Shown here: positions 6,486 through 39,388 of the stretch, piece by piece
Layout: each line of letters starts with the position of its first letter
Numbering within the stretch: position 1 is the stretch's first letter
NCBI GenBank assembly: GCA_022563885.1
Contig: JADFMM010000021.1
Coordinates: 1-39,563, forward strand
Direction of reading: 5' to 3'
DNA: 39,563 bases
DNA from: Planctomycetota bacterium
GTDB taxonomy: Bacteria > Planctomycetota > Phycisphaerae > Sedimentisphaerales > Anaerobacaceae
Notes under the pieces: generated by a model
What the model saw: the letters and a program-made list of their open reading frames with translations, nothing else
What the model was told of the DNA's origin: nothing
Databases searched by the model: none
Program-made: the position numbers and the translations under genes

Positions 6486-6556
6486 ACAGGTCAGACGGAC
6501 TGCTACCCATATACACACTTTTGTGAACCGGGCCCTGTCAGATGGTCCCGCTCACC

Positions 6557-6585
6557 TTGACAGTCCTCCCTCTGCAGGCTATCAT
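6557..6585 (+). promoter_or_regulatory. Sigma-70-like promoter for the DUF1549/DUF1553 operon
   Basis: TTGACA at 6557-6562 and TATCAT at 6580-6585 are separated by 17 bases. This is the best -35/-10 match upstream of the plus-strand run that starts at 6718, with an untranslated leader of roughly 125 bases. Confidence 0.6.
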
Positions 6586-6717
6586 GATGCTAGCCCATTG
6601 GGCTACAAACGCTCAAACAGATCAACGCTCCCCATGTTGCGTTGTGACAGACGACCAGGCAATGCCAACGGTCTAACGGATCTCGAAACCCAAATGCCTA
6701 TACTGGGAGGCTCATTG

Positions 6718-9249
6718 ATGGTGCCAGCGGCTATCACGACGTGGTGGGGTCACGTTGTGGGCGTAGTGGCCACCACAGCGCTGCTGGTGACCCTCACTTC
6801 AGCACAGCCTCGGGTCGAGCCCGGACCCCTTTTTTTTGAGCAGCAGGTTCAACCCATGCTTCGGCAGCACTGCCTCAAGTGCCATGGAAATGACCCTGAA
6901 CGCATCCGAGCCGGACTTCGACTGAACAGCCGACTCGGTCTAACGCGTGGCGGCGACAGGGGCTCCGTCATCGACTTTGACCGGCCGGAACATAGCTTGC
7001 TCTTAGAAATGGTCAGCTATCGGGACGAGCATCACCAAATGCCCCCGGCCGGAAGACTGTCCGATGCAGAGATAGACACGCTCACCCGGTGGGTCAAGAT
7101 GGGCATCCCGTGGGCAGCAGAAGGGCCGAGGCCTGAGCCGGCGAAAGAGGAGGCCGAGCCCACCCTCACGGATGGGTCAGACTATTGGGCCTACCAGCCC
7201 GTAGAGGAGCCGACCATCCCAGAGGTGGAAAACGAAGCATGGGTCCGCAACCCCATAGACGCCTTTATTCTGGCCAGGCTGGAGAAGGCCGAGTTGGAGC
7301 CGGCGGAGCCGGCCGAAAAGACGGCGCTGTTGCGGCGCGCCACCTACGATCTGACCGGCCTGCCCCCCAGCCCGGAAGAGGTAGACGCGTTCATCGCCGA
7401 CACCCGGCCCGATGCCTATGAGCGGCGGATCGACACGCTGCTCGCATCGCCGCACTATGGGGAAAAATGGGGACGGCACTGGCTGGACCTGGTGCGATAT
7501 GCCGAAACGAACGGCTACGAGCGGGATTCCGACAAACCCTATATGTGGCGCTACCGAGACTACGTGATCAATGCCTTCAATCAAGACAAGCCCTACGACC
7601 GCTTCATTGTGGAGCAGTTGGCGGGGGACGAACTCGACAAGGTCACGCCCGAGACCCTGACCGCCACGGGATTCTATCGCTTGGGGCTGTGGGACGACGA
7701 GGTACCGGATCGGCTGCAGAGCCGCTATGACACGCTTGACGACATCGTCTCCACGACCAGTCAGGTGTTTCTGGGCGTCAGCCTGGGCTGCGCCCGCTGC
7801 CACGATCACAGGAAGGATCCCTTCCTTCAGAAAGACTATTACAGCGTCCTGGCGTTTTTCGACAACATCAGCGACATGAGCAAGAGGGGGATTCTTCGGC
7901 CCGTGATGAGTGCGGAGGAACACAGCGTGTACGAAGAGAAGCGCCGGGCCAAGGAGGCGTCGGAGCAGAAACTTGAAGAACGTCTCCGGCAGATCGAGAT
8001 CCGATTTCGGGAGAAACTGGCCCAAGAAGACGAGGCCTTCGCCCGCCAGATGGCGTCATCCGCCGGCACAGAAAAAAAGCCCAAAGGCCTGCGCGATCTG
8101 CTGGAGAGCCGCGGTCCAGACGTCCTGAGCAAGACGGAACTTCAGGAATACCGAGACTTAAAGAAAGGGCTAAAACTGAGCCGACAGCGCGTCGTGCCCG
8201 GGACCTTCGCCCCGGCCATCGCCGAGAGAGGGTCCAAGGCACCCCAGGCCCATGTGCTCATACGGGGCAATGCCCACGTCAAGGGGGAGGCAGTCCAACC
8301 CGCGTTCCCGGCGGTCCTAGATGAGCGTGCGCCGGCGTTACCCCAAGCAGACCCCTCTGCCAAGACAACGGGCCGGCGGCGGGTGCTGGCCGAGTGGATC
8401 GCGAGTAAGGAAAACAAGTCCACCGCCCGCGTCATGGCCAATCGCCTCTGGCAATACCACTTCGGCCGGGGGATCGTCCGCAGTTCGAACGACTTCGGAC
8501 GCCTGGGCACCCAGCCCACCCATCCGAAACTGCTGGACTGGTTGGCGACCGAGTTCGTACGCCAGGGCTGGCGCATGAAGGCCATGCATAAACTGATGAT
8601 GCTGTCCAGCACCTACCGCATGTCCTGCCAGGCCCAGCCGCAAGCCCTGGCAGTCGATCCCCAAAACGACCTTTTCTGGCGCTTCAACATGCGTCGCCTG
8701 GGGGCGGAAGAGATACGCGATTCCATACTCGCCGTCAACGGGCGTCTGAATCTCAAGATAGGCGGCCCCAGCGTTTTCCCACCCATGCCCGCCGAGGTAT
8801 TGGCGACCTCCTCACGGCCGGATACGGTCTGGGGCAAGTCCACGCCCGCAGAGGCCGCTCGGCGCAGCGTCTACATCAAGGTCAAACGGTCCTTGATCCT
8901 GCCCATGCTGGCCAACTTTGACCTGGCCGATACCGACGCGAGTTGCCCGGTGCGTTTCGCCACGACCCAGCCCTCTCAGGCCTTGGGCATGCTCAACAGT
9001 GCATTCATCAACGAGGAGGCGGCTCACTTTGTCGATCGCCTGCACCGAGACGCGGGCATGGACACGACGGCTCAGTTGGAACGGGCCTTGCGGCTCGCGC
9101 TGGCACGGAAGGCGCGACCGGAGGAGATCTCCACCTGCGCGGCCTTTGTTTCGTCTCTGCGGAGAGAGGAGGGGCAGACGGCCACGGAAGCGCTGACAAA
9201 CTTCTGCCTCCTGGTATATAACCTCAACGAATTCATCTTCCTGGATTAG
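6718..9249 (+). CDS. Secreted planctomycete cytochrome c (PSCyt1)-DUF1549-DUF1553 protein
   Basis: 843-residue exported protein with three domains in the usual order. After a signal segment (residues 5-30) the PSCyt1 cytochrome domain has a CLKCH haem site at 52-56 and a candidate distal ligand in HQMPP. DUF1549 follows (RRATYDLTGLPPSPEEV, GEKWGRHWLDLVRYAETNG) and contains a second CXXCH (GCARCHDHRKDPF). A charged, coiled-coil-like insert comes next (about residues 405-455), then DUF1553 (ARVMANRLWQYHFGRGIV, LLDWLATEFV). I took the ATG at 6718 because GGGAGG lies seven bases upstream; an ATG at 6523 would put a poor 65-residue extension before the signal peptide. The function is not established; proteins of this type are paired with DUF1501 proteins and are suspected to act on extracellular polysaccharides with redox chemistry. 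The neighbour 12 bases downstream is that partner. Confidence 0.93.
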   Translation: MVPAAITTWWGHVVGVVATTALLVTLTSAQPRVEPGPLFFEQQVQPMLRQHCLKCHGNDPERIRAGLRLNSRLGLTRGGDRGSVIDFDRPEHSLLLEMVSYRDEHHQMPPAGRLSDAEIDTLTRWVKMGIPWAAEGPRPEPAKEEAEPTLTDGSDYWAYQPVEEPTIPEVENEAWVRNPIDAFILARLEKAELEPAEPAEKTALLRRATYDLTGLPPSPEEVDAFIADTRPDAYERRIDTLLASPHYGEKWGRHWLDLVRYAETNGYERDSDKPYMWRYRDYVINAFNQDKPYDRFIVEQLAGDELDKVTPETLTATGFYRLGLWDDEVPDRLQSRYDTLDDIVSTTSQVFLGVSLGCARCHDHRKDPFLQKDYYSVLAFFDNISDMSKRGILRPVMSAEEHSVYEEKRRAKEASEQKLEERLRQIEIRFREKLAQEDEAFARQMASSAGTEKKPKGLRDLLESRGPDVLSKTELQEYRDLKKGLKLSRQRVVPGTFAPAIAERGSKAPQAHVLIRGNAHVKGEAVQPAFPAVLDERAPALPQADPSAKTTGRRRVLAEWIASKENKSTARVMANRLWQYHFGRGIVRSSNDFGRLGTQPTHPKLLDWLATEFVRQGWRMKAMHKLMMLSSTYRMSCQAQPQALAVDPQNDLFWRFNMRRLGAEEIRDSILAVNGRLNLKIGGPSVFPPMPAEVLATSSRPDTVWGKSTPAEAARRSVYIKVKRSLILPMLANFDLADTDASCPVRFATTQPSQALGMLNSAFINEEAAHFVDRLHRDAGMDTTAQLERALRLALARKARPEEISTCAAFVSSLRREEGQTATEALTNFCLLVYNLNEFIFLD

Positions 9250-9260
9250 GAGCCAACGCC

Positions 9261-10745
<1,485 letters not shown>

Positions 10746-26631: not shown

Positions 26632-26666
26632 GCGTGCGACTCTGTTATCGTATTAGGAGTAAAGCC

Positions 26667-26900
26667 ATGTCAACACTAAGCAAGAAGGCGACTATTTATC
26701 TTGATCCAGACATTCATAGAGCCTTGAAGATTAAGGCGGCAGCCACCTCCACTTCCATTTCCGAGCTGATCGACAATGCGATTCGTCACGAACTTGCATT
26801 GGATGAAGAGGATCTGCGCACTTTTGATGATCGCGCCAGTGAGCCGACTGTATCGTTTGAGAAAGTGCTGAAGGATCTAAAGGCCAATGGCAAAGTTTAG
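26667..26900 (+). CDS. RelB/RHH-type antitoxin
   Basis: 77-residue antitoxin. The N-terminal half is a ribbon-helix-helix DNA-binding segment (KATIYLDPDIHRALKIKAAATSTSISELIDNAI), here in pieces: the beta strand ATIYLD, helix ALKIKAAA and helix ISELIDNAI. The acidic C-terminus (DEEDLRTFDD, SFEKVLKDLK) would wrap the toxin. The ATG at 26667 is preferred over one at 26634 because TAGGAG lies seven bases ahead. It overlaps the toxin gene by 14 bases. By family knowledge it neutralises the toxin and represses the shared promoter. Confidence 0.88.
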   Translation: MSTLSKKATIYLDPDIHRALKIKAAATSTSISELIDNAIRHELALDEEDLRTFDDRASEPTVSFEKVLKDLKANGKV

Positions 26901-27144
26901 CATAGAGATCAAGAAGTCAGCGATCAAGGAACTCAACGCCATTGTCAAGAAAGACTTAAAGAGAATCCTATCGAAAATACGTTCCCTTGCAGACGACCCT
27001 CGGCCGATGGGATGCGTAAGACTATCAGGACAGGAACGATATCGGCTCAGACAGGGAGATTATAGAATACTGTATTCGGTTGAAGATGATGTGTGCGTCG
27101 TGTATGTCGTTAAGATAGCTCATAGAAAAGATGTTTACCGCTAA
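26887..27144 (+). CDS. RelE/ParE-superfamily toxin
   Basis: 85-residue toxin of the RelE type, probably a ribosome-dependent mRNA interferase or a gyrase-directed ParE. The typical pattern is present: FSIEIKKSAIKELNAI, LSGQERYRLRQGDYRILYSV and a closing KIAHRKDVYR, which supplies the conserved basic and Tyr residues. The start overlaps the antitoxin end. It is convergent with the large cytochrome gene, whose stop is only 12 bases away, so read-through in either direction would produce antisense RNA. Confidence 0.9.
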   Translation: MAKFSIEIKKSAIKELNAIVKKDLKRILSKIRSLADDPRPMGCVRLSGQERYRLRQGDYRILYSVEDDVCVVYVVKIAHRKDVYR

Positions 27145-27156
27145 TACTGTTCTCTC

Positions 27157-28809
27157 TCAGTACACCTGCCCCGAATGCTGCGTGCCATGGCAGCTCATGT
27201 AGCACATGCCCTGGAAGACGCCCATGTCCACGAACTCCAGGCGATCCGTGCCCGGGTCTCTGGAGACAATGCTCGTATCAAAGTTGATCAGATGCGTGTG
27301 GTTGTTGCGGCTGCCCTGGGCGGAACTGATGCCGTGGGCATCGTGACAGGCGGAACAGGGAATTCTTTGGTCCAAATGGAGTCGGTGCGTGGGGAAGCTC
27401 TCGTCACTCAGGATGCTGTTGCGGCTATGGCAACTGTAGCACAAGGCGTAGGCGAACTCACTTTCCGAGGTAAAGTCCGAGGTTTCGTAGTGATGTTTGA
27501 GCAGCGGCCGGTAGATGGAGCCATGAGGTCCGCGGGTGGCGGACCCTTCCTCGGAACTGTGGCAGTCGGTGCAGTAAATGACACTGGCCACCGACAGCCC
27601 GGCTCGCAGGCTGGGGACATTCTTGCTGACGCCCGGGCCCACCACGGGATGGAAGGAGTGAGCCGAGGGGTCGAACTCCAAACGTGTATTCGTCTGCGTC
27701 ACCACCCGGGTGATGTCTGAGCCGATGCGGCTCGGGTTGTCTGCGTGGCATTTGAAGCAGACCTCGTACTCAAAGCGCGCCTGCGGCGTCACGCCGCCCG
27801 ACGAGGTGATTCCGGTGACATGCCGCATCGCCCCTTGGATCAGGGGGGCCTGGGCGTCCTGTTTCTGGACCGCATGCGGGTTGTGGCAGTCGGAACACTC
27901 GACATGACGAGACATCGCCAGGGGCGATTCTCTCAGATCGTGATTGTTGCGGAAGGCAACGACATCGTGGCGACTGGGTTTGATCAACTCGGCCTTGATG
28001 TCCGAGGTGCCGACGGTTCCGTCGTGACAACTGAAGCAGGTCTCCTCCGATTGCTCGAAGTGCAGCAGCCGCTCGGGACCGCCGGCCGAATGGACCTTGT
28101 GACAGGCCATGCAGGCCAGGTCCCCTACGGTCTGGTGCGGGCCGTCCGCCAGCAGCCGGTTGTGGGACCCCATCACCGATGCGCTGTCATGGCGATGCGA
28201 GGAGACGGACCAGCCCTGCATGGTGTGGCAGCTCACGCACATGCGGGAGCGTTGATTGGACATCGTCAGGAAATCGCCAAACTGATTGTCGTGGGCGTCG
28301 TGACAGGTCGTGCACTGCAACTCGTTGTCGCCGTCGAGCTTGAGGGTCTCGGGAAGCGTCGAAGCAGGCCGAAGCTGGGGATCCTTGGCGACCAGGGCAT
28401 CGGTGTAGGCGAAGCTAATGGGATGGTCGTCGGAAAGATCGGTCCCCAGGTTGGCCTCTCCGGGCCCGACGAACGCGCCTCCGGGACGGAGGGTGCCCGT
28501 GAAGCCGGAGGCCACGGTGCCGTCGTGGCAACTGAGACACATCTTGCTGGACCCCGTGGGCTGTCCGACGACGGCATCCAAGGAAGAACTCGCATAGATC
28601 TTGTAGACCGTGGGGGAGAGTGTCTGATCCCACAGCACCGATCTAGAGGTCACATGAGGCGTGTGACAGAACGCGCACGCGTCACCTCCTGCCGACGCCG
28701 ACAGGTCATGGGGAGAACCCGTGACGGTGACCGCGATGACCTTGGGCACGATACCACATAGGAGACCCAGGGCAAGCAGCTTGACAGGCCGTTTACAGTG
28801 AATTGGCAT
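27157..28809 (-). CDS. Secreted multiheme cytochrome with 11 CXXCH and one CX3CH site
   Basis: 550 residues from the ATG at 28809 (MPIHCKRPVKLLALGLLCGI, a signal peptide). Sites in order: CAFCH, CLSCH, CTTCH, CVSCH, CMACH, CFSCH, CSDCH, CFKCH, CTDCH, CYSCH, CSACH, and near the end CYMSCH, which has three residues between the cysteines. The first part (SPHDLSASAGG, CAFCHTPH, CLSCHDGTVASG) is the doubled-CXXCH/cytochrome c3-like family and resembles the small tetraheme protein at 34555-35175, so the protein looks like an extended relative. Its start overlaps the end of the beta-propeller gene by 17 bases, and it ends the minus-strand electron-transfer cluster. Likely place: outer surface or periplasm at the conduit. 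An upstream ATG in frame exists but leads to no signal peptide. Confidence 0.93.
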   Translation of the reverse strand: MPIHCKRPVKLLALGLLCGIVPKVIAVTVTGSPHDLSASAGGDACAFCHTPHVTSRSVLWDQTLSPTVYKIYASSSLDAVVGQPTGSSKMCLSCHDGTVASGFTGTLRPGGAFVGPGEANLGTDLSDDHPISFAYTDALVAKDPQLRPASTLPETLKLDGDNELQCTTCHDAHDNQFGDFLTMSNQRSRMCVSCHTMQGWSVSSHRHDSASVMGSHNRLLADGPHQTVGDLACMACHKVHSAGGPERLLHFEQSEETCFSCHDGTVGTSDIKAELIKPSRHDVVAFRNNHDLRESPLAMSRHVECSDCHNPHAVQKQDAQAPLIQGAMRHVTGITSSGGVTPQARFEYEVCFKCHADNPSRIGSDITRVVTQTNTRLEFDPSAHSFHPVVGPGVSKNVPSLRAGLSVASVIYCTDCHSSEEGSATRGPHGSIYRPLLKHHYETSDFTSESEFAYALCYSCHSRNSILSDESFPTHRLHLDQRIPCSACHDAHGISSAQGSRNNHTHLINFDTSIVSRDPGTDRLEFVDMGVFQGMCYMSCHGTQHSGQVY

Positions 28810-29869
28810 GGTCTGAGACCTCGAGAATTTCAAAGACTTGAATTCGTTTATTGTAAGTGTCCGCGACATAGATCCAGTTCCTCTCATCGATCCAAATGCC
28901 GGCAGGCAGCCAGAACTCACCCAGGCCGCGTCCCTCCTGGCCAAAGACCATCAGCATGCGCCCCTGCCGATCGAAGACCTGGACATTCTCAAACTGGCGG
29001 TCCGTCACATAGATATTGCCGAAACGATCCGTCGCCACACCACAGGGGTGGGCAAAGTAGCCGGGACGATCACCTTGTTCTCCGAAGCGCGTTAGGAACT
29101 GTCCGGTGGGGGAAAACACCTGAATACGATAGTTCAGCGTGTCGCTGACATAGATCTGTCCCGCCCGGTCGCTCCATAGCTGGGTCGGGAAGTTGAACTG
29201 CCCGGGTCCGATGCCGCGCGACCCTATCGTCCTCAGGAAGGTACCGGTCTCGGAGAACACCTTTAGATCGTGGCTTCCGGTGTCCGCGACAACGATCTCC
29301 TGCCGCTGAGGCAAGTGTACGATGCCTGCCGGTCGCTTGAGTTCGTTGGCGCCAAATGAGATCTGGTGGTCGCCCGCCGCATTAAAGACACAGACACTGT
29401 GCAACTGACTGTCCACCACGTAGAGGGACGCGGAGCTCAGGGCCAGTGCCACGGGTCGCTGCAGCGTCTGGCCTGACTGGATGGCGCCAAACTGGCTGTA
29501 TCGCTTGCGGCCGAAATCGAACAGATGGATCACCTGGCCCGCACTGTCGGCAACGTATAGCCTGCCGTCGCCACTCATGGCCACGGCACAGGGGGCCAGA
29601 AGTGCCCCGGCCTTTTTTTTGCCAAAGACCAGTTGGGCCAATCCACCCAGCAGGCCGGGTCCCCGCGCGACGTCCCCCTCGGCGGCGATGGTCGCCAGAT
29701 GGCGGATGCGGGCAGGCTGGGGTGGCTCCGGCCAGACGGGAGCCGCCTGGCTTCGACTGAACAACTGGTCTCTCGGACCGCTACACCCCGCGCAGCCGAT
29801 GAGCGCCAGGAGTCCTAATGCCAATCCCAGATGAATGCGAAACATGTCCATAAACATCCTTAAGTTCAA
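28793..29869 (-). CDS. NHL-repeat (6-bladed beta-propeller) lipoprotein
   Basis: 358 residues. The signal ends in a lipobox (ALIGCAGC), so the protein is anchored to a membrane. From about residue 85 there are repeated NHL blades (GDGRLYVADSAGQVIHLFD, QEIVVADTGSHDLKVFSE, GQIYVSDTLNYRIQVFSP, GNIYVTDRQFENVQVFDR, NWIYVADTYNKRIQVFE), at least five clear ones, enough for a six-bladed propeller. The segment before the blades (PARIRHLATIAAEGDV, LVFGKKK) is shared with the propeller protein at 32995-34476. Its ATG overlaps the barrel gene stop as ATGA and its 3' end overlaps the next cytochrome. Propellers of this kind recur beside porin-cytochrome loci and may position cytochromes at the barrel. Confidence 0.92.
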   Translation of the reverse strand: MNLRMFMDMFRIHLGLALGLLALIGCAGCSGPRDQLFSRSQAAPVWPEPPQPARIRHLATIAAEGDVARGPGLLGGLAQLVFGKKKAGALLAPCAVAMSGDGRLYVADSAGQVIHLFDFGRKRYSQFGAIQSGQTLQRPVALALSSASLYVVDSQLHSVCVFNAAGDHQISFGANELKRPAGIVHLPQRQEIVVADTGSHDLKVFSETGTFLRTIGSRGIGPGQFNFPTQLWSDRAGQIYVSDTLNYRIQVFSPTGQFLTRFGEQGDRPGYFAHPCGVATDRFGNIYVTDRQFENVQVFDRQGRMLMVFGQEGRGLGEFWLPAGIWIDERNWIYVADTYNKRIQVFEILEVSDHANSL

Positions 29870-31920
29870 AACATTCGTTTCAATCGCGCGTAGACGTAAG
29901 TGCCCTTCCTCTCATGGGCCAGCCTATTCAAGAAATCATATTCAATCCCCACATCGGCACTGACCTGTCGCACTGCGCACTTGAGGTTTACATCCCACTG
30001 AAAACCGCGGGTCTTGCCCTGGCGGCTGTCGTCCTCGTCGCGGTAGTCCAGACGGCCCGAGAGCCGAAAGGTCTCCGTGAGGCGGCTCCGAACGGTGCCG
30101 CCCACTGTCATCAACTGCACATCATAAACAGGGTCCTCAAGATAGTCTATCAGGCTATGAGAGCCGTACAACGTCATGCGGGTCGCCTCACTGATGGGAA
30201 CCAGGTAACTCCCCTCCATGCGTTTGCTGCGGGAAGGGATGCGGGTGGAGTCTTCATGGCTGTACTCCGCCAGCAGTCTCAGACCCTTGCGCCTATAATC
30301 GACACCCACGGTATTGATGGCAAATTCATCGGGGACAATGCTCGTCGCCAGAGATTCAAGGGCCTCGCTGCGATTCTGAAACTCGTAGTAGACGGACACG
30401 CCCAGATGAAACTGCTCTCTCAAACGGACGCTGTGCATCAGCGCGATCTCTTCCCGCGCGGGTTCTGTCAGGGAGTCGTAGTCAATCGACAGCGTCTGGT
30501 CGCCGTCCGTGGTGATGTCCCCCCCTAGGAGTACGATGATCTCGGTGATCCCGCGGGTCTGGCTGATGAAGTAGTCGCTGTAGATCACGGAGCGATCGGC
30601 GCTCAGCACCACGATGGAGGAGGCAAGCACATTGGTGCGCTTCAGTTCGATGCGAAGAGATCCTGCCACCAGGAAGGGATGACGTTCGGCGACGACGTTG
30701 ACCAGGGTCGTGCCACCGGTCTGTTCGAGGTCCAGTCGGGAAAAGTTGTAGCGGGCAAAGAGGGTCCCCCAGGGATTGTGACGGTAGTAGTTGAATCCGA
30801 CGTCCCCGCCCAACTCGCTCTGATCCACTCCCTGGCCCAGATCGGCCGCGGAGAGATACAGGCTGCCATGGGTCACGAGGTTCTGGTAGAAGCGGCGGGT
30901 AAAACCGGTTTCGCCCCGCAGTTCGTTGTTCTTCAGGGTAGGACGCTCGGATTCGTGGAAGGAAAGCCCATAGTGCGTCTGAAAGGCCTGCGAGTGCCGC
31001 AGCTTGAGCCGTTCCTGCCACAGTAGACGCACCAACTCGAAGTCTCCGGATTGGTCCAGGCGATCGACGAAGGAGTCCAGCCGATACTGTTCCTCGTCGC
31101 CAAAACGCTGGTGGTGCGACAGCGTGACGATCTGTTCCTGCCGGTCGATGAAGACGCCCCCCTGCGTCTGCGTCGTGTCATTGTTCCGAAAATCGAAACT
31201 GAGATCGGACTGCTCGGAAAACGCGTGATCAACGGAGTAACCGATATGCTGGTCTTCCCGCCTAAAGAGGTCCTGTTCGTTCAGGCCTTGCCCCTGTTGC
31301 CGCGTCTTGTTCTGCCCTATATGCAGACTCATGGGCCACTCCCCGGACCGATAGGCCAGAGAGGTATTGATGCCCTCCCGCTCACTACGAAGCGACCCGG
31401 CGAACTGACGGGGAATGCGGGCTTCCGATTTGTCGATGCGGAAGGTCCAGGGGAACATCTTCTCGGGCAGGACGTCGGCGGACAGGTCATACTCCTGCAA
31501 GGTCCCACTGCCGTTGTCAGAGGTACCGTCGAGTTCATACTCATGCTGCGTCAACCCCGCCCCCACGGAGGCACGGTAGGAGAAAAATTCGGGACTGCCC
31601 ACGTGGCCTTGGGTGCGAAGACGAATCCGCTCCTCGAATTCCAGCGCCTCGAACTGCGTGTCGGCCCCATTCGTCTCCTGTCGGTCTTCCCGTCTTTCGG
31701 CGACCCACTCCACCTCACCCCGCACCTGCTCGACGTGCAGCAACTCGCGCTCTCGGCCGCCCACGGTCACGTGACAGCCGGCCGTCAGGACGACCATGAC
31801 CAGAAACCAAGCCGCGATCGTCAGTACCCTGGCTACTTGGGTCGCTGGTAATATTGACCTGCGCGCCGGCCCGGTCCCCGCAAAGTCCAAGTATCTAAAT
31901 GGGCGACTACCATACGCCAT
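29866..31920 (-). CDS. Large outer-membrane beta-barrel of a porin-cytochrome conduit
   Basis: 684 residues. A hydrophobic signal with a Cys (VLTAGC, near residue 49) suggests a lipoprotein-type or ordinary signal. After about 50 polar residues the protein is a series of amphipathic strands with charged turns (EFFSYRASVGAGLTQHEYEL, MSLHIGQNKTRQ, TLFARYNFSRLDLEQ, FHLGVSVYYEFQNR, LRLLAEYSHEDS) up to the last strand ending YVYARLKRMF with terminal Phe, the BAM-type signal. No CXXCH site is present. Size and strand content fit a 20- to 26-strand barrel such as the MtrB/OmbB type, which lets a periplasmic cytochrome touch an outer one. I could not match it to MtrB by sequence. The ATG shares one base with the pentaheme gene's stop (TGATG), indicating coupled translation. 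Confidence 0.85.
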   Translation of the reverse strand: MAYGSRPFRYLDFAGTGPARRSILPATQVARVLTIAAWFLVMVVLTAGCHVTVGGRERELLHVEQVRGEVEWVAERREDRQETNGADTQFEALEFEERIRLRTQGHVGSPEFFSYRASVGAGLTQHEYELDGTSDNGSGTLQEYDLSADVLPEKMFPWTFRIDKSEARIPRQFAGSLRSEREGINTSLAYRSGEWPMSLHIGQNKTRQQGQGLNEQDLFRREDQHIGYSVDHAFSEQSDLSFDFRNNDTTQTQGGVFIDRQEQIVTLSHHQRFGDEEQYRLDSFVDRLDQSGDFELVRLLWQERLKLRHSQAFQTHYGLSFHESERPTLKNNELRGETGFTRRFYQNLVTHGSLYLSAADLGQGVDQSELGGDVGFNYYRHNPWGTLFARYNFSRLDLEQTGGTTLVNVVAERHPFLVAGSLRIELKRTNVLASSIVVLSADRSVIYSDYFISQTRGITEIIVLLGGDITTDGDQTLSIDYDSLTEPAREEIALMHSVRLREQFHLGVSVYYEFQNRSEALESLATSIVPDEFAINTVGVDYRRKGLRLLAEYSHEDSTRIPSRSKRMEGSYLVPISEATRMTLYGSHSLIDYLEDPVYDVQLMTVGGTVRSRLTETFRLSGRLDYRDEDDSRQGKTRGFQWDVNLKCAVRQVSADVGIEYDFLNRLAHERKGTYVYARLKRMF

Positions 31921-33014
31921 CAGCGTCCACCGTCGCCTTCCCGATTGTCGGGTGTGGTGAGGGCCTCGTCAATGCGACGCCTATACTGCTCGATGGTCTT
32001 TCGCATGGCCGCCGGGACCAATCCGCTCTCCAGGACCTCCGTAAAACCGCGTCGCGCGTCCTCGAGATGCCCTCGGTGGTACTGTTCCATACTCTCATAG
32101 TAGCGCTGCGCCACGCGTCGCGTGTGATCCCGTCCGGACAGGGCTTGCTGTTCGGCGGCGATGCGTTCTTGGGCTTCCAGATGACGGAACACGTCTTGCC
32201 ACTGTTGGGTCTCAGACGCGGAGACCTTGCCGCTGCCCCGGATACCCATCAGGTAGGCCCTGGCGCTGCCAAGGTCTCGCTGCTCAATGTGGCGCAGCAC
32301 CGTAGCGACCATGATCCGGAAGTCGGTGCCGCGCTCCGCATCCTCGTGGGCCAGACTCAACACCGCTTTATAGTCTTCATGGTCGAAGGAGGTCTTCCCC
32401 CCGGCAGACGCGGCGATCAACAGAAACTTGATGTCGCTTGAATGGCCCGTGTGGCAGTCCGTACACCGCCGATAGCCGGGTAAGTCATGATAGTCGATCT
32501 CTTCAATCGCTCTGGAATCGTGACACTGATAGCAGAGGCCTGGGGCCGGTTCGAGCAAGAGGTGCTCATGTAGAGAACGATGCGGTTCATGACACCACAG
32601 GCAGTCCCCCTCGGCGACGGGTTCATGGACCCAGTGCCGATGGACAGCGATCTCTTGGTGACATTCGTAGCAGAGCTGAGGCACGTCCGCGACCAAACCC
32701 ACTTCCCGAGAAAACTGACGCTCAATCTGGTCCCCGTGGCAACGCTCGCACTGTCTGACCGGCTCGTGTACGTACCAGGTAAGCTCGGCGCTCGCCTTTA
32801 GGGCGAATAGGTCGTCATCCCTCGAGTCTGGTCGAGCAGGGCTCTCTGCAGTCTCTTCGGGCCGGGCGGGAACCCCTTCAAAAAAAAAAGTCAAGAGAGA
32901 CCGTCGCGCAGACTCGCCGCAACTGCTGACACCCGCCAGACAGATCGTCAAAACACACCATCCTATGCGTCGGCACATTACCCGAGACAAGCGCCTACCG
33001 ACCTTTCTCTGCAT
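31920..33014 (-). CDS. Pentaheme cytochrome lipoprotein with a C-terminal helical domain
   Basis: 364 residues. The signal ends LAGVSSC (lipobox), then an acidic/Pro-rich linker. Five haem sites (CERCH, CYECH, CLWCH, CYQCH, CTDCH) lie within about residues 90-195, with intervening HEP and HRHW histidines as distal ligands. From about residue 205 the protein is haem-free and helical. The last 50 residues share a motif with the end of the beta-propeller protein encoded just upstream (YYxSM, AxxG, VLxSGLxP, AM, ID). A run of ten A on the plus strand (32880-32889) encodes Phe-Phe-Phe in the N-terminal region and is a slippage-prone site. The start overlaps the upstream gene by 20 bases. Likely the periplasm-side electron donor to the barrel. 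Confidence 0.92.
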   Translation of the reverse strand: MQRKVGRRLSRVMCRRIGWCVLTICLAGVSSCGESARRSLLTFFFEGVPARPEETAESPARPDSRDDDLFALKASAELTWYVHEPVRQCERCHGDQIERQFSREVGLVADVPQLCYECHQEIAVHRHWVHEPVAEGDCLWCHEPHRSLHEHLLLEPAPGLCYQCHDSRAIEEIDYHDLPGYRRCTDCHTGHSSDIKFLLIAASAGGKTSFDHEDYKAVLSLAHEDAERGTDFRIMVATVLRHIEQRDLGSARAYLMGIRGSGKVSASETQQWQDVFRHLEAQERIAAEQQALSGRDHTRRVAQRYYESMEQYHRGHLEDARRGFTEVLESGLVPAAMRKTIEQYRRRIDEALTTPDNREGDGGR

Positions 33015-34476
33015 CTAGACTGGGAGCAGGCAGCACTTGGTCTATTTGCGCCAGGTGACTTCGGACCGTCACCGCCATGGCAGGCGGAATCAGCCCGCTG
33101 TGCAAGACAGCCGAGAGACCCTCTCTGGCCTCGGCGTACTGCCCGATCCGATAGAGGTGCATGCTACGATAGTAGATACCCGCAATCTCCTGCATGCGCG
33201 CCTCCCGTTCGCGATCGGTCGAACTCGTGAAGGGATCGGCCGGGAGCCGCTGCATCTCATCCGTCTGCAGCGTAGAGGCCACCGGCCCCGTTCCACCCGC
33301 AGCCGTATCGTCGCGCTTCTCTTCTCTCTGCGCCAGTGACGCCAAGCGCGCGTCTTCAATGGCCTTCTCCTGCAGGGGAAAATGCCCAAAGCCATAGACG
33401 TTTATCTTGGCGCCATACTGGTTGGAGACAAACACCAGGAATTCAATCTCTGCCCCCTCCGCCGCATAGGATTCGAACAGGTCCACATGCTCATAGTCGA
33501 GACAGACCGAGGCGGGCAGGTTCATATTGCCCGGCCGGTTGCCCGGAAACCCGAAGAACATCAACAGCGCGCCCTCACGGTCATAGATCTTCGTGACCTC
33601 GGGTGCCGCATCCACCACCCAGATGCGCCCCTCACGGTCGACCTCGATACCCTTGGGCCGGACGAAATGATGAATGCTCCTTCCCGCCTGGCCAAAGGCC
33701 AATTTAAGGTCCCCGGCGCTGTCAAACTCTGTGACACGTCCCAGCAGCTTGTCGGTGACCAGGACATTCCCCTGGTCATCCACGGCAAGATCCCCAATGA
33801 GTACAAACTGGCCCGGGGCATCCCCCGCTTTTCCCATGCGCTGTAGCACCTCCCCGGTGGCGATGTCCAGGACGACGACTTGATTGTTTTTCATATCTGT
33901 GATGTAACAACGCTGGCCGCGTACCTCAACGTCTATGGGCGTCATCTCCAGGGACTCGCCCAACACGTTGATCAGGGCATCATCGGGGCCATAGACAAAC
34001 ACCTTGCCCGCCGTGGGATCGGCAATGTATTTGGTGCCCGCCACGATGCAGATGTTGACCGGATTGGTCATACGTCGTGCCTCGCTCAGGTAACCAAAGG
34101 TCCTCTCTCTCAGGTCCAGTATGGTGACTCTTTTTTTCTCAACGTCGCAGACGTAAAGCTTTCCATCGTAGACGTCGATCCCATATGGTTTGGCGATCCA
34201 CTGCGGGGCAGTCTCCTCCTTGCCAAAGACCAGGGTCTCGAGGCCACTGGGCTCCTCCGCGTCGCGGTCCAACAGATCAGACGCGCTGGAGTAGGAGGTC
34301 AAAAACTGTATGCGGGGCTTGTCGGGCGCAGGAGGGTAGAAGACGCCCTGCGCCGGCGTGGCGGTCGGTCGACGGTCCAGTCGCACTCGGCCCAAGCAAC
34401 CCCACACAGACCAGGCTGCCAAGATGCCCACACAAACAACTAAACCATTGGCGCATAACGACTTCGTGATCACCAT
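32995..34476 (-). CDS. NHL-repeat beta-propeller lipoprotein with C-terminal TPR-like tail
   Basis: 493 residues. Signal with lipobox (SVWGC), then the family leader FYPPAPDKPRIQFLTSYSS and LETLVFGKEE. Blades span about residues 95-340 (GKLYVCDVEKKRVTILD, GQRCYITDMKNNQVVVLD, GNVLVTDKLLGRVTEFD, GRIWVVDAAPEVTKIYD). A linker rich in Glu, Ala and Thr leads to a C-terminal helical piece (IYYRSMHLYRIGQYAEAREG, VLHSGLIPPAM) that looks like one TPR-like unit and matches the tail of the pentaheme lipoprotein. It is the first of five overlapping cistrons, 78 bases after the small tetraheme gene. The shared tails suggest that the two proteins use the same docking partner. Confidence 0.9.
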   Translation of the reverse strand: MVITKSLCANGLVVCVGILAAWSVWGCLGRVRLDRRPTATPAQGVFYPPAPDKPRIQFLTSYSSASDLLDRDAEEPSGLETLVFGKEETAPQWIAKPYGIDVYDGKLYVCDVEKKRVTILDLRERTFGYLSEARRMTNPVNICIVAGTKYIADPTAGKVFVYGPDDALINVLGESLEMTPIDVEVRGQRCYITDMKNNQVVVLDIATGEVLQRMGKAGDAPGQFVLIGDLAVDDQGNVLVTDKLLGRVTEFDSAGDLKLAFGQAGRSIHHFVRPKGIEVDREGRIWVVDAAPEVTKIYDREGALLMFFGFPGNRPGNMNLPASVCLDYEHVDLFESYAAEGAEIEFLVFVSNQYGAKINVYGFGHFPLQEKAIEDARLASLAQREEKRDDTAAGGTGPVASTLQTDEMQRLPADPFTSSTDREREARMQEIAGIYYRSMHLYRIGQYAEAREGLSAVLHSGLIPPAMAVTVRSHLAQIDQVLPAPSLDAEKGR

Positions 34477-34554: not shown

Positions 34555-35175
34555 CTACTTGTTGTGACAGGTCAGACAGAGTGCGCTGCCGGCGTTACTC
34601 TTGACCAAAAGGTAAGCAGCCCCCGATGCATTGTGCACATCGTGACAGGAAGTGCATTCGAGCCGGCCCTTATACAGCAGGTCCGAATCAATCGTGCCCC
34701 CCAGTCCTGACGGATGGACCTTGGGATCGTAGAGTTCCCTGTCGATCACGGCCAAGGCTGAATCGTAGGTAAAAGAGATGGGATGCGAGGTGCTCAGGTC
34801 GGGGCCTATTTGCAGCAAGTTGAACTCTGTCCCGCCGGTGAACCCGCCGAAATTGTCGAGTGCCACCGTGCCGTCATGACAGCTCAAACAGAGCTTGGAG
34901 GTGGCGGTGGGCTGCCCGATGGTCTGACTGCCGTCGAAGGAATCGCTCGAATAGAGAACGAAGGTGGCGTCGGTGAGCTGGTGGTTCCAGAGACGTCCCC
35001 CCTCCACGTCCGGGACGGCATTGTGAGGGGTATGGCAGGTTATGCAGATCTCACCGCTGAAGTTCCAATTCGCCGTACTGAAATCATGGGCAGACCCACT
35101 GATCCCACCGTGGAGGGGAAACACCAGCGCCATGCTCACACACAAAACGAGCAGAACCAACACCTGCCACTTCAT
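34555..35175 (-). CDS. OmcE-like tetraheme cytochrome, candidate extracellular filament subunit
   Basis: 206 residues from the ATG at 35175 (MKWQVLVLLVLCVSMALVFP). An AAGGAGG eight bases upstream decides this start over an ATG 11 codons earlier. Four CXXCH sites are at 44-48, 96-100, 174-178 and 200-204; additional His at 30, 51, 65, 131, 154 and 181 can serve as distal ligands. The layout HDFSTANWNFSGEICITCHTPH, LCLSCHDGTVALD, HPISFTYDSAL, LECTSCHDVHN and a C-terminal SALCLTCHNK is what I know of the Geobacter OmcE family, whose members polymerise into nanowires with some hemes ligated across subunits. The signal has no lipobox, consistent with secretion. It has its own strong promoter inside the cluster, as expected for an abundant subunit. 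Filament formation is inferred. Confidence 0.9.
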   Translation of the reverse strand: MKWQVLVLLVLCVSMALVFPLHGGISGSAHDFSTANWNFSGEICITCHTPHNAVPDVEGGRLWNHQLTDATFVLYSSDSFDGSQTIGQPTATSKLCLSCHDGTVALDNFGGFTGGTEFNLLQIGPDLSTSHPISFTYDSALAVIDRELYDPKVHPSGLGGTIDSDLLYKGRLECTSCHDVHNASGAAYLLVKSNAGSALCLTCHNK

Positions 35176-35232
35176 CCCACACGCCTCCTTTGTACAATCC
35201 GATGCCAAGTAAAACTAAGTACGGCTTCACAG

Positions 35233-35263
35233 AACGGTATTAAGAACCGTTTATTATACCGTT
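35233..35263. promoter_or_regulatory. Inverted repeat overlapping the tetraheme promoter
   Basis: AACGGTAT (35233-35240) and ATACCGTT (35256-35263) form a perfect 8-base dyad with a 15-base gap. The upstream half covers the -10 hexamer and the other half falls about 10-15 bases into the transcript. It could be an operator or an early RNA hairpin. Confidence 0.5.
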
Positions 35264-35281
35264 TCGGAGCCGAAAATTCAA
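35253..35281 (-). promoter_or_regulatory. Strong sigma-70-like promoter of the tetraheme gene
   Basis: On the minus strand TTGAAT (35281-35276) and a perfect TATAAT (35258-35253) are 17 bases apart, with a leader of about 70 bases to the start at 35175. It lies after the stop of the ResB-like gene (35306), so the tetraheme gene can be transcribed independently of that gene. Confidence 0.72.
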
Positions 35282-35305: not shown

Positions 35306-36472
35306 CTAGGGGACGCCGGGATCTCGCGGCCGCTTGACGCCGTAATGCAGAGTGACCGTCCCTTCACTGGTCCGGTGATGGTGAGGTTTGCCGATCTCCA
35401 GCACGATCTGCTCCTCGCTGCTGCCGCCTCCCAGAACGTCGACCACCACCGCCGGACGGAGGAGTCGCTCCCTGTTGTTGGCCCACGACCTCGTCAACGC
35501 GGCACCGACGTGGACCTCTTCGACGGTGAACGAATAGGCCTCGTCCGAAAATGCAAAAGACTGTCCTATTGAAACGGTGTCCAGCCGCAGTCTCTTTTCC
35601 TGCCCGGAAAGGACGAAGGTCACGCCGGTGGGCAGCACGATCAGCGTGTAACGACCCGCACTCCGGACCCGTTCAAAATCGACAAAGGTGGCCCGCAAAG
35701 GGAGCTTCTCTTGCCCATGCCCATCTCCAAAGTGGGGAAAGCGGGACCACAGCCAGCACTTCTGTCGGGTCTTGCCGTCGCTGACCTCTACCTGAAGGGC
35801 AGGATTGTCTGCTTTGTCCGGTGAGTCGAAGACCTCTCCCGTCTCCAAGTGAATACCATAATGAGACATGTAGTCCAACACCTTGATCGTGTAGCCGGGA
35901 ACCGTGATGGCGTTTCTCTGTCCCAGATCGAGCGATATCTCTAAGGGAGGCGCTTCCTCCAGAGGCCAAACCCTTAAGAGCCCCAATCTGGCGCCGGCCA
36001 CGGTCAAGGTCTCACGGATCCGCTCGATGGTATGGACGTCTTTCAGCGGCACCACACCCACCGACCCGATCGAAGCGGAGACGGACTGCCGTTGGGGATC
36101 TTGAGAGTCGAGCCAGACTGCCTGAGCCATGGCCGGCCCCCGCAAGGCCAGTCGGACCAGAACGCCCCCGTCCGCTTGCGGCTGAGCCGTTTCCTGCCAC
36201 ACCAGATCGGGCAGATAGTGCCGCAACGTCACACGGACCGTAGTCCCCGGAACGGCAAAGGTCTGATTCAGTGTCCGCGGCCGATGACGATCTGAGACTG
36301 CTATGGGGATCTCCAGCGCCGGCCCCTCGAACCCCAAGAACAAGGTCACCGTCCAGCGTCCCTCAAACATGGGGGCATGCGGGTCTTGAGGATTGGCGGA
36401 CACCAGCGTGCCTGCGGCGAACACCGCCGTTATCAGGACATGGACGCCGAGATATCTTTTACAACTTCCCAT
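35306..36472 (-). CDS. Secreted protein resembling the periplasmic part of ResB
   Basis: 388 residues with a signal peptide (VHVLITAVFAAGTLVSA) and no other membrane segment. The middle and C-terminal parts (GYTIKVLDYMSHYGIHLETG, NPALQVEVSDGKTR, WLWSRFPHFG) resemble the periplasmic beta domain seen in ResB-type cytochrome c assembly proteins and in secreted proteins near multiheme clusters. The match is by eye and weak. No CXXCH or CXXC site. It is the first gene of the electron-transfer cluster, 130 bases before the tetraheme start. Possible roles are cytochrome maturation or chaperoning; an accessory surface protein is equally possible. Confidence 0.6.
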   Translation of the reverse strand: MGSCKRYLGVHVLITAVFAAGTLVSANPQDPHAPMFEGRWTVTLFLGFEGPALEIPIAVSDRHRPRTLNQTFAVPGTTVRVTLRHYLPDLVWQETAQPQADGGVLVRLALRGPAMAQAVWLDSQDPQRQSVSASIGSVGVVPLKDVHTIERIRETLTVAGARLGLLRVWPLEEAPPLEISLDLGQRNAITVPGYTIKVLDYMSHYGIHLETGEVFDSPDKADNPALQVEVSDGKTRQKCWLWSRFPHFGDGHGQEKLPLRATFVDFERVRSAGRYTLIVLPTGVTFVLSGQEKRLRLDTVSIGQSFAFSDEAYSFTVEEVHVGAALTRSWANNRERLLRPAVVVDVLGGGSSEEQIVLEIGKPHHHRTSEGTVTLHYGVKRPRDPGVP

Positions 36473-36617: not shown

Positions 36618-36776
36618 AGAGCCCCTACGCAAAATGACTCTGCATTCAAACGGCTTATTCTGCGCCTGGACGGCGTCAGGCTCCATCGACCGTCCTCGGA
36701 CGGCCTGCTTCGCCTTCCCTGCCAGACACAGAAACGCTCGTTTTCGGTGCGACGATTCATTTTGCGTAGGCGCTCT
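36618..36776. mobile_element. 159-bp MITE-like element with 23-bp terminal inverted repeats
   Basis: Left end 36618-36640 and the reverse complement of 36754-36776 agree at 21 of 23 positions (core CCTACGCAAAATGA). The interior holds a GC-rich dyad (GACCGTCCTCGGACGG) and an open minus-strand frame (NKPFECRVILRRG) that parallels the repeat-derived tail of the oxidoreductase relic near 4284-4330. The right end overlaps the TAG stop of the AbiEii-like relic at 36777-36775. The left end abuts the upstream region of the cytochrome cluster. Confidence 0.72.
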
Positions 36777-37325
36777 AAGCCAAAACGGACCGAATGTTCT
36801 CAACGGTAATAAGGGTAGCGTCGCTCGGGTGTTCGAGAAAGGATTTCACATCTGCTGCGATTGCTGGACAGTCGAGATCGTTTAGCGTTTCAATAAGGTG
36901 GCCTTTCCAGCCGGACGAGTCCATAGCCCCCGCACCCTGTGTCTGGTCTAATGCCTTCTGGAGTTGACCAAGGTTGGGTTCAACGGGAGGCACCTTGCCC
37001 CGATACCAAAGCAGATCATACCAATCTCTGCTTTTGCTATACTGCCGCGTAAGGAGTGCGTGAACTTTCCCAGCCATGAGCGAAGAGAGATCGTAGTGAT
37101 TAGGGATCGGCAATAAATAAATTGGGCATTCAAAAGTCCAAGTTATTTCTTGCCGGTCCCTTAATCGACAGCATGGCGTGCCGTGTGATGAGGTCGCGCA
37201 CCGACCGTGCACCCGCAGGCGGATTCGTGTCGATCTCTAGCTTGATCGATAGTTTCTGGCTCTTCATGGCAGCAAGCCCGGCTTCCTGCAGCAGTCCTTC
37301 TAGTTTGATATTGTAAATACATTAT
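36775..37325 (-). pseudogene. AbiEii/AbiGii-family nucleotidyltransferase toxin, interrupted relic
   Basis: C-terminal two thirds of an AbiEii-like protein, the toxin part of type IV toxin-antitoxin systems. The upstream piece (about 37164-37325) reads YNIKLEGLLQEAGLAAMKSQ, then IKLEIDTNPPAGARS and HAMLSI. It then runs into a 58-base palindromic insert with stop codons. Downstream the gene resumes at HYDLSSLMAGKVHALLTRQY and SRDWYDLLWYRG and ends at 36775. Removing the insert plus one copy of TTA restores MLSI-N-HYDLSS in frame. The N-terminal part with the nucleotidyltransferase catalytic motif is missing: an in-frame stop precedes it, and the sulfatase gene ends there. No AbiEi antitoxin is present. 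Confidence 0.85.
37103..37160. mobile_element. 58-bp palindromic element with TTA target duplication
   Basis: The ends GGGATCGGCAATAAATAA and (inverted) GGGACCGGCAAGAAATAA match at 16 of 18 positions, and the inner AAATTGGGC/GTCCAAGTT arms pair as well, so nearly the whole unit folds into one hairpin. It is flanked on both sides by TTA (37100-37102 and 37161-37163). It splits the AbiEii-like gene. A second, diverged copy is at 39324-39388. Confidence 0.75.
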
Positions 37326-39323: not shown

Positions 39324-39388
39324 TAGGAACCGGCAATAAATAAATTGGGCAATTGGGCATTCAAAAGTCCAAGTTATTTCGTGGTTCT
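39324..39388. mobile_element. Second copy of the palindromic element
   Basis: Same core as 37103-37160 (CGGCAATAAATAAATTGGGC, CATTCAAAAGTCCAAGTTAT). It carries an extra 8-base AATTGGGC direct repeat and a diverged right end (GTGGTTC). Flanks are TTA-like on both sides. It sits at the broken 5' end of the GH43-like relic. The following 39389-39530 shows no supported gene, only short similarity (CGGTCCCTG, GCGGGCA) to the segment around 39290-39297. Confidence 0.68.

Follow-up and report, generated by a model that had tools for sequence, protein, structure and literature searches.

How cells control the building of cytochrome nanowires is, to our knowledge, little known outside Geobacter. We addressed this question at one locus of a 39,563-nucleotide stretch of planctomycete DNA (the window), where a cluster contains a gene for an OmcE-like tetraheme cytochrome, directly preceded by promoter-like hexamers and by an inverted repeat (dyad). 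What would transcribe this gene, how far would the transcript reach, and is the dyad an operator? The window offers one testable promoter for a nanowire-type operon.

A predicted promoter and a dyad before the tetraheme cytochrome gene

A profile built from the window protein and seven orthologs matched OmcE (7TFS) over nearly its full length with an E value of 5.6e-25, and the solved chain 9yuq with 4.1e-25. The OmcE protein of Geobacter sulfurreducens is described as a tetraheme filament (PDB 7TFS; PMC9473688, PMC12954529). Full-length homology together with four CXXCH motifs classes the window protein as OmcE-like, and judged from its sequence it is a probable candidate for a nanowire cytochrome. 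The features of the locus are collected in Table 1.

Table 1. Positions of the features discussed, numbered from the first letter of the window
Feature	Position	Strand	Basis
-35 element TTGAAT	35276..35281	-	sequence reading
-10 element TATAAT, spacer 17	35253..35258	-	p=0.005 vs shuffles
Dyad AACGGTAT-N15-ATACCGTT, overlapping the -10 element and predicted +1	35233..35263	.	exact arms, 12/15 pairs symmetric
Third AACGGTT, centre of the dyad	35245..35251	-	sequence reading
Second palindrome TTTCGGctCCGAAA, 14 bp, filling most of the -35/-10 spacer	35262..35275	.	sequence reading
Shine-Dalgarno GGAGG	35184..35188	-	sequence reading
OmcE-like tetraheme cytochrome of 206 aa, heading the run	34555..35175	-	ATG 35175, stop 34555, four CXXCH
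NHL1, an NHL-repeat protein; 78-bp gap to the cytochrome gene	32995..34476	-	homology, conserved order
Multiheme cytochrome CYT2 (Paired_CXXCH_1)	31920..33014	-	Pfam, conserved order
Large protein lacking a Pfam match, a conserved member of the operon; probably an outer-membrane barrel	29866..31920	-	
NHL-repeat protein NHL2	28793..29869	-	homology, conserved order
Large multiheme cytochrome DECA, end of the conserved run	27157..28944	-	homology, conserved order
UP388, without Pfam match; in relatives a conserved module upstream of the cluster	35306..36472	-	homology

The preliminary description had placed a TTGAAT-17-TATAAT promoter directly upstream of the OmcE-like gene and inside the cluster, and both statements were confirmed. 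The hexamers are present on the minus strand at 35281-35253, and UP388, whose homologs stand upstream of the same operon in relatives, shares their strand, its end lying some 25 bp short of the -35 element. The site scored 10 out of 12 and ranked first among eight promoter-like sites between 29000 and 39563, a region for which shuffled sequences gave a mean of 4.0 (sd 1.8). Hexamers of this kind with a spacer of 16-18 bp, here 17 bp, beat the expectation from composition. With approximate weight matrices for sigma-70 and sigma-54, the sigma-70 score of the window gave p=0.005, the floor for 200 shuffles. We consider it likely that 35281-35253 is a housekeeping (sigma-70-type) promoter of the tetraheme gene, with a predicted transcription start at about 35246.

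The dyad had been called perfect and was said to cover the -10 element and the early transcript. Its arms AACGGTAT and ATACCGTT are indeed exact, its centre falls near -2 and it spans -17 to +14 of the predicted start. When the 130-bp gap was shuffled 5,000 times, a perfect pair of 8-bp arms (spacer 3-25) appeared in 167 cases, and 14 such pairs, two of them overlapping, are present in the window; the arms alone are therefore unremarkable. A 31-mer with at least 12 of 15 symmetric pairs was found in 7 of 5,000 shuffles, a count for which the length was fixed after the dyad had been seen; when all lengths from 12 to 41 were scanned, a dyad this good arose in 19 of 2,000 shuffles. The same score was reached in four of 607 window tiles, one of which is the dyad itself. 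Dyad symmetry over a promoter, a trait of repressor operators, is present here over 31 bp.

The palindrome TTTCGGctCCGAAA in the -35/-10 spacer, which was not mentioned in the preliminary description, could easily be a product of chance. Elsewhere in the window an identical hairpin, TTGGGCATTCAAAAGTCCAA, followed by a T-rich tail, occurs twice (37122-37141 and 39353-39372).

Operator or chance symmetry

The preliminary description had suggested a search for the same dyad before other multiheme cytochrome genes of the genome, and held that its absence from orthologous promoters would speak against an operator. We found no exact second copy in the window's own 6.5-Mb genome, and at up to three mismatches the dyad matched 15 places compared with 26 for the control. 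Exact copies exist in 6 of 89 family genomes; the five besides that of the window all lie inside an open reading frame whose product, by inspection, looks like a MetY-type enzyme. Thus the dyad was found at no other promoter, either in its own genome (exact and with three mismatches) or in the 89 family genomes (exact). Nor did any of the other 101 ortholog upstream regions contain it; the best match there has four mismatches, equal to the reversed control.

The nearest ortholog with an assembled upstream region (genome G002) encodes a protein only 67% identical. A closer relative, G001, is 93-97% identical over most of the operon; its contig stops inside the gap before NHL1, and a DNA search for the G001 region upstream of the tetraheme gene did not find it. 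Absence from orthologs is therefore a weak criterion, and at such distances it does not disprove an operator. Out of the 30 window ORFs scanned with Pfam, one alone gave a regulator-like match, a weak one to a ribbon-helix-helix antitoxin, and none of the 30 is a regulator gene beside the dyad.

The promoter may thus be real and the dyad a chance symmetry to which the -10 element supplies part of one arm, with expression constitutive or controlled elsewhere. The shuffle counts for the arms and for the best dyad agree with this reading, as do the uniqueness of the dyad among the promoters of genome and family and its lack in the other orthologs, and we keep it, tentatively, as a real possibility. 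Against it stand the 12 symmetric pairs out of 15 and the operator-like placement; moreover, local repressors often act on a single operator, and operator sequences change quickly at such divergence. That the dyad is a repressor operator is in our judgement only a little short of an even call. The operator claim of the preliminary description thus held for position and found no echo in orthologs or in the rest of the genome. Condition-dependent switching, also proposed there, we can only infer.

Promoter types among orthologs and the reach of the promoter

A homology search yielded 173 ORFs, of which 113 have exactly four CXXCH motifs in frame and fewer than 330 aa; 102 of these are distinct. 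Truncated or longer forms such as G006:C12 were left out, and L038 was kept despite having only 84 bp upstream. Of the 102, 20 share the family or order of the window (the window included; L031 belongs to the order and not to the family), and 82 are named, mostly distant loci. Of note, at the end of G006:C12 (L029) the cytochrome frame runs, by inspection, into a peptide resembling translated sequencing adapter at the contig end.

We scored the 300 bp upstream of each ortholog for both promoter types. Sigma-70 scores at p<0.05 were obtained in 14 of the 20 family or order upstream regions, the window included, compared with 1/20 on the reverse strand and 1/20 inside the gene (Fisher 4e-5), and seven of the 20 reached p<0.01; among the 82 named loci there were eight (controls 4 and 2). 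Sigma-54 scores at p<0.05 were found in 10 of the 20 (controls 3 and 1), where the comparison of 10 with 3 is marginal (Fisher 0.04), and in 19 of the 82 (controls 2 and 3). A predicted promoter directly before the OmcE-like gene is a recurring theme, and its type varies. These promoter-like signals before orthologs, together with the sequence itself, back the earlier claim that the tetraheme gene has a promoter of its own.

It is rather improbable that the operon is instead read mainly through from UP388, or from a sigma-54 remnant, with TTGAAT-17-TATAAT incidental. The end of UP388 so close to the -35 element on the same strand would suit such an origin, as would the frequency of sigma-54-type promoters at this place in relatives and the stretch TTGGCATCGGATTGTAC at 35208-35192. 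However, in this nearest sigma-54-like stretch of the window GT replaces the invariant GC, and transcription from it would begin beyond the Shine-Dalgarno site. The window's sigma-54 score is unexceptional (p=0.51), as opposed to p=0.005 for sigma-70, and on this score a sigma-54 promoter in the window was rejected.

The order tetraheme-NHL1-CYT2-barrel-NHL2-DECA is conserved in relatives. In the window it forms a run of six closely packed genes on the same strand, of which the later ORFs overlap or touch. In the window, folding and a hairpin scan revealed no convincing terminator behind the tetraheme gene: the gap is less stably folded than its shuffles (z +2.06), and its best hairpin overlaps the start of the next gene. 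Because of the tight packing, the conserved order and the lack of a convincing terminator, the predicted promoter at 35281-35253 most likely serves the whole operon and not the tetraheme gene alone. This bears on the proposal of the preliminary description that the promoter is private to the tetraheme gene, so that the filament subunit is made in excess, with the dyad as a switch. A promoter of its own favours that proposal, and a strong terminator-like hairpin (-21 to -25 kcal/mol, with a T-rich tail) stands right after the tetraheme gene in 4 of the 20 orthologs (L128, L124, L030 and L031), so that in some relatives this gene may have its own transcript and form a separate unit. In the window itself the close-packed run and the poorly folding gap point the other way; we regard the proposal as rather improbable here, and excess production of the subunit was not borne out. 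That the dyad acts as an RNA element, a hairpin or attenuator in the leader, is highly improbable and was rejected by position and folding, since its arms do pair in a 37-nt stretch folding to -7.2 kcal/mol but the predicted start falls after its left arm; a transcript from the 35281-35253 promoter would thus lack the hairpin, which only read-through RNA could form, and the leader (35247-35170) is no more stably folded than shuffled sequence (z +0.74).

Next to the gene of the large multiheme cytochrome, positions 26634-27144 (+) encode a small ribbon-helix-helix protein and a ParE toxin, likely a parDE pair. Further away, at 6523-10745 (+), a gene for a PSCyt1/PSCyt2/PSD1 protein precedes one with DUF1501, an arrangement that typifies planctomycete-like genomes; together with DUF1559 genes, these genes hint at such a lineage.

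A candidate sigma-54 regulon in relatives and what the window's lineage lacks

In relatives a different dyad, TTCTCA-N4-TGAGAA, often lies upstream of the cytochrome gene. It was found in 3 of the 20 family or order orthologs as an exact match, in 6 with at most one mismatch and in 13 with at most two, against 0/20 for the reversed pattern in all three classes and 0, 0 and 6 in the 82 other loci; the pattern was first spotted by eye in the same upstream regions, so these counts are not independent of its choice. Over 15 whole genomes, chosen for having the cytochrome or for belonging to the genus, the dyad is rare, with 27 exact sites compared with 3 reversed ones. Fourteen of the 27 belong to one neighbourhood, in front of the cytochrome gene or of a response regulator/kinase pair, or next to regulator, heme and Rnf-like genes (sigma-54 activator, Rrf2-like, AsnC-like, SUMT-like and RnfC-like, named by inspection except for PF00158); the other 13 are elsewhere or unassigned. 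The loci tied to this dyad are L133, L134, L021, L131, L135, L174-L192 and L193-L199.

A sigma-54 activator gene is located about 8-19 kb upstream of the cytochrome gene on the same contig in G010, G019, G026, G038, G055, G057 and G102. In the wider ortholog set such genes adjoin the same cytochrome gene in several phyla: a same-strand activator gene ends less than 700 bp upstream in 18 of the 102 orthologs, all among the 82 named loci (L042, L046, L050, L051, L054-L056, L059, L061, L062, L070, L079, L088, L096, L097, L099, L101 and L103), from Calditrichota, Bacteroidota and other named MAGs. The motif TGGCA[CT]-N5-TTG[CT] was present in 7 of these 18 and in 8 of the 84 elsewhere (Fisher 0.005), and the promoter-like sites by the adjacent activator genes are mostly TTGGCAY-N5-TTGT, with T for the usual C. 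Two observations run counter to a simple picture: L133 and L134, which have the exact TTCTCA-N4-TGAGAA, carry sigma-70-like and not sigma-54-like promoters, and the G127 assembly contains the operon and lacks an activator ortholog (39-41% identity for the best full-length match).

Several parts of this arrangement are absent from the window's lineage. Between UP388 and the tetraheme gene, relatives have genes for a 13-heme cytochrome and, after it, for a protein of some 346 residues, while in the window UP388 directly adjoins the tetraheme gene. The 13-heme gene is present in G002 and G038 and absent from the window's genome (G000) and G001. The activator has orthologs of 64% identity in G002 and of 66-84% in G028, G057 and G117, and none in the G000 and G001 assemblies, where the best full-length or near full-length matches reach 39-41%. 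Exact TTCTCA-N4-TGAGAA was found in none of the three genomes that represent the genus of the window, not even in G002, where the activator is retained. Some of these apparent losses could be assembly gaps (96% complete), and as relatives with the activator also show sigma-70-like signals, the word replacement may overstate a mixed ancestral state. On the other side of UP388 the window has an AbiEii-like fragment (36775-37212, -) at the place taken in relatives by the remainder of the electron-transfer locus, which suggests a point of rearrangement.

We see about an even chance that the locus combines a sigma-70 promoter of the OmcE-like operon and a possible repressor dyad as a lineage-specific replacement of sigma-54-type control. 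Transcription would start near 35246 from the 35281-35253 promoter, which would drive the tetraheme cytochrome, NHL1, CYT2, the probable barrel, NHL2 and the large multiheme cytochrome as one operon. The dyad, if active at all, would be a site at which a putative repressor keeps out RNA polymerase while the cell has no need of extracellular electron transfer. Relatives often have a sigma-54-type promoter or the distal dyad at this operon, together with an activator encoded nearby; with the presumed loss of the activator and the intervening genes in the window's lineage, the promoter and dyad resemble a replacement specific to that lineage. On the likeliest account, a pruned cluster stands here under a rewired sigma-70 promoter, which may carry a private repressor site.

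A stronger, joint claim seems unlikely to us as a whole. It holds that the family's OmcE-like operon, heme genes and Rnf-like cluster form a dedicated sigma-54 regulon marked by TTCTCA-N4-TGAGAA, with a locus-encoded activator; that the window's lineage lost the activator, its sites and the intervening cytochrome genes; and that sigma-54 control was swapped there for a sigma-70 promoter and a new private operator.

The result for the window itself is modest, and the candidate regulon of the relatives is the more interesting lead. The comparison suggests that OmcE-like operons may have a regulon of their own, made up of activator and dyad; if true, genome sequence could reveal which regulator governs nanowire genes in many uncultured lineages. 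Among the titles and abstracts searched, none described the regulation of this operon type, which is not proof of absence.

Among known systems, a sigma-70 promoter with an overlapping repressor operator is a known general kind. The window resembles it in its hexamers, its 17-bp spacer and a dyad reaching from the -10 element into the early transcript, and differs in that its dyad has no second site, no conservation and no regulator among the 30 ORFs scanned. With the sigma-54 (RpoN) promoter, distal enhancer dyad and NtrC-type activator of its relatives, the window shares the target gene and operon, whereas the GG-N10-GC promoter with its TGGCAC/TTGC context, TTCTCA-N4-TGAGAA and the activator ortholog are lacking. 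With the Geobacter OmcE filament, the window protein shares four CXXCH motifs, the same small secreted size and a near-full-length match.
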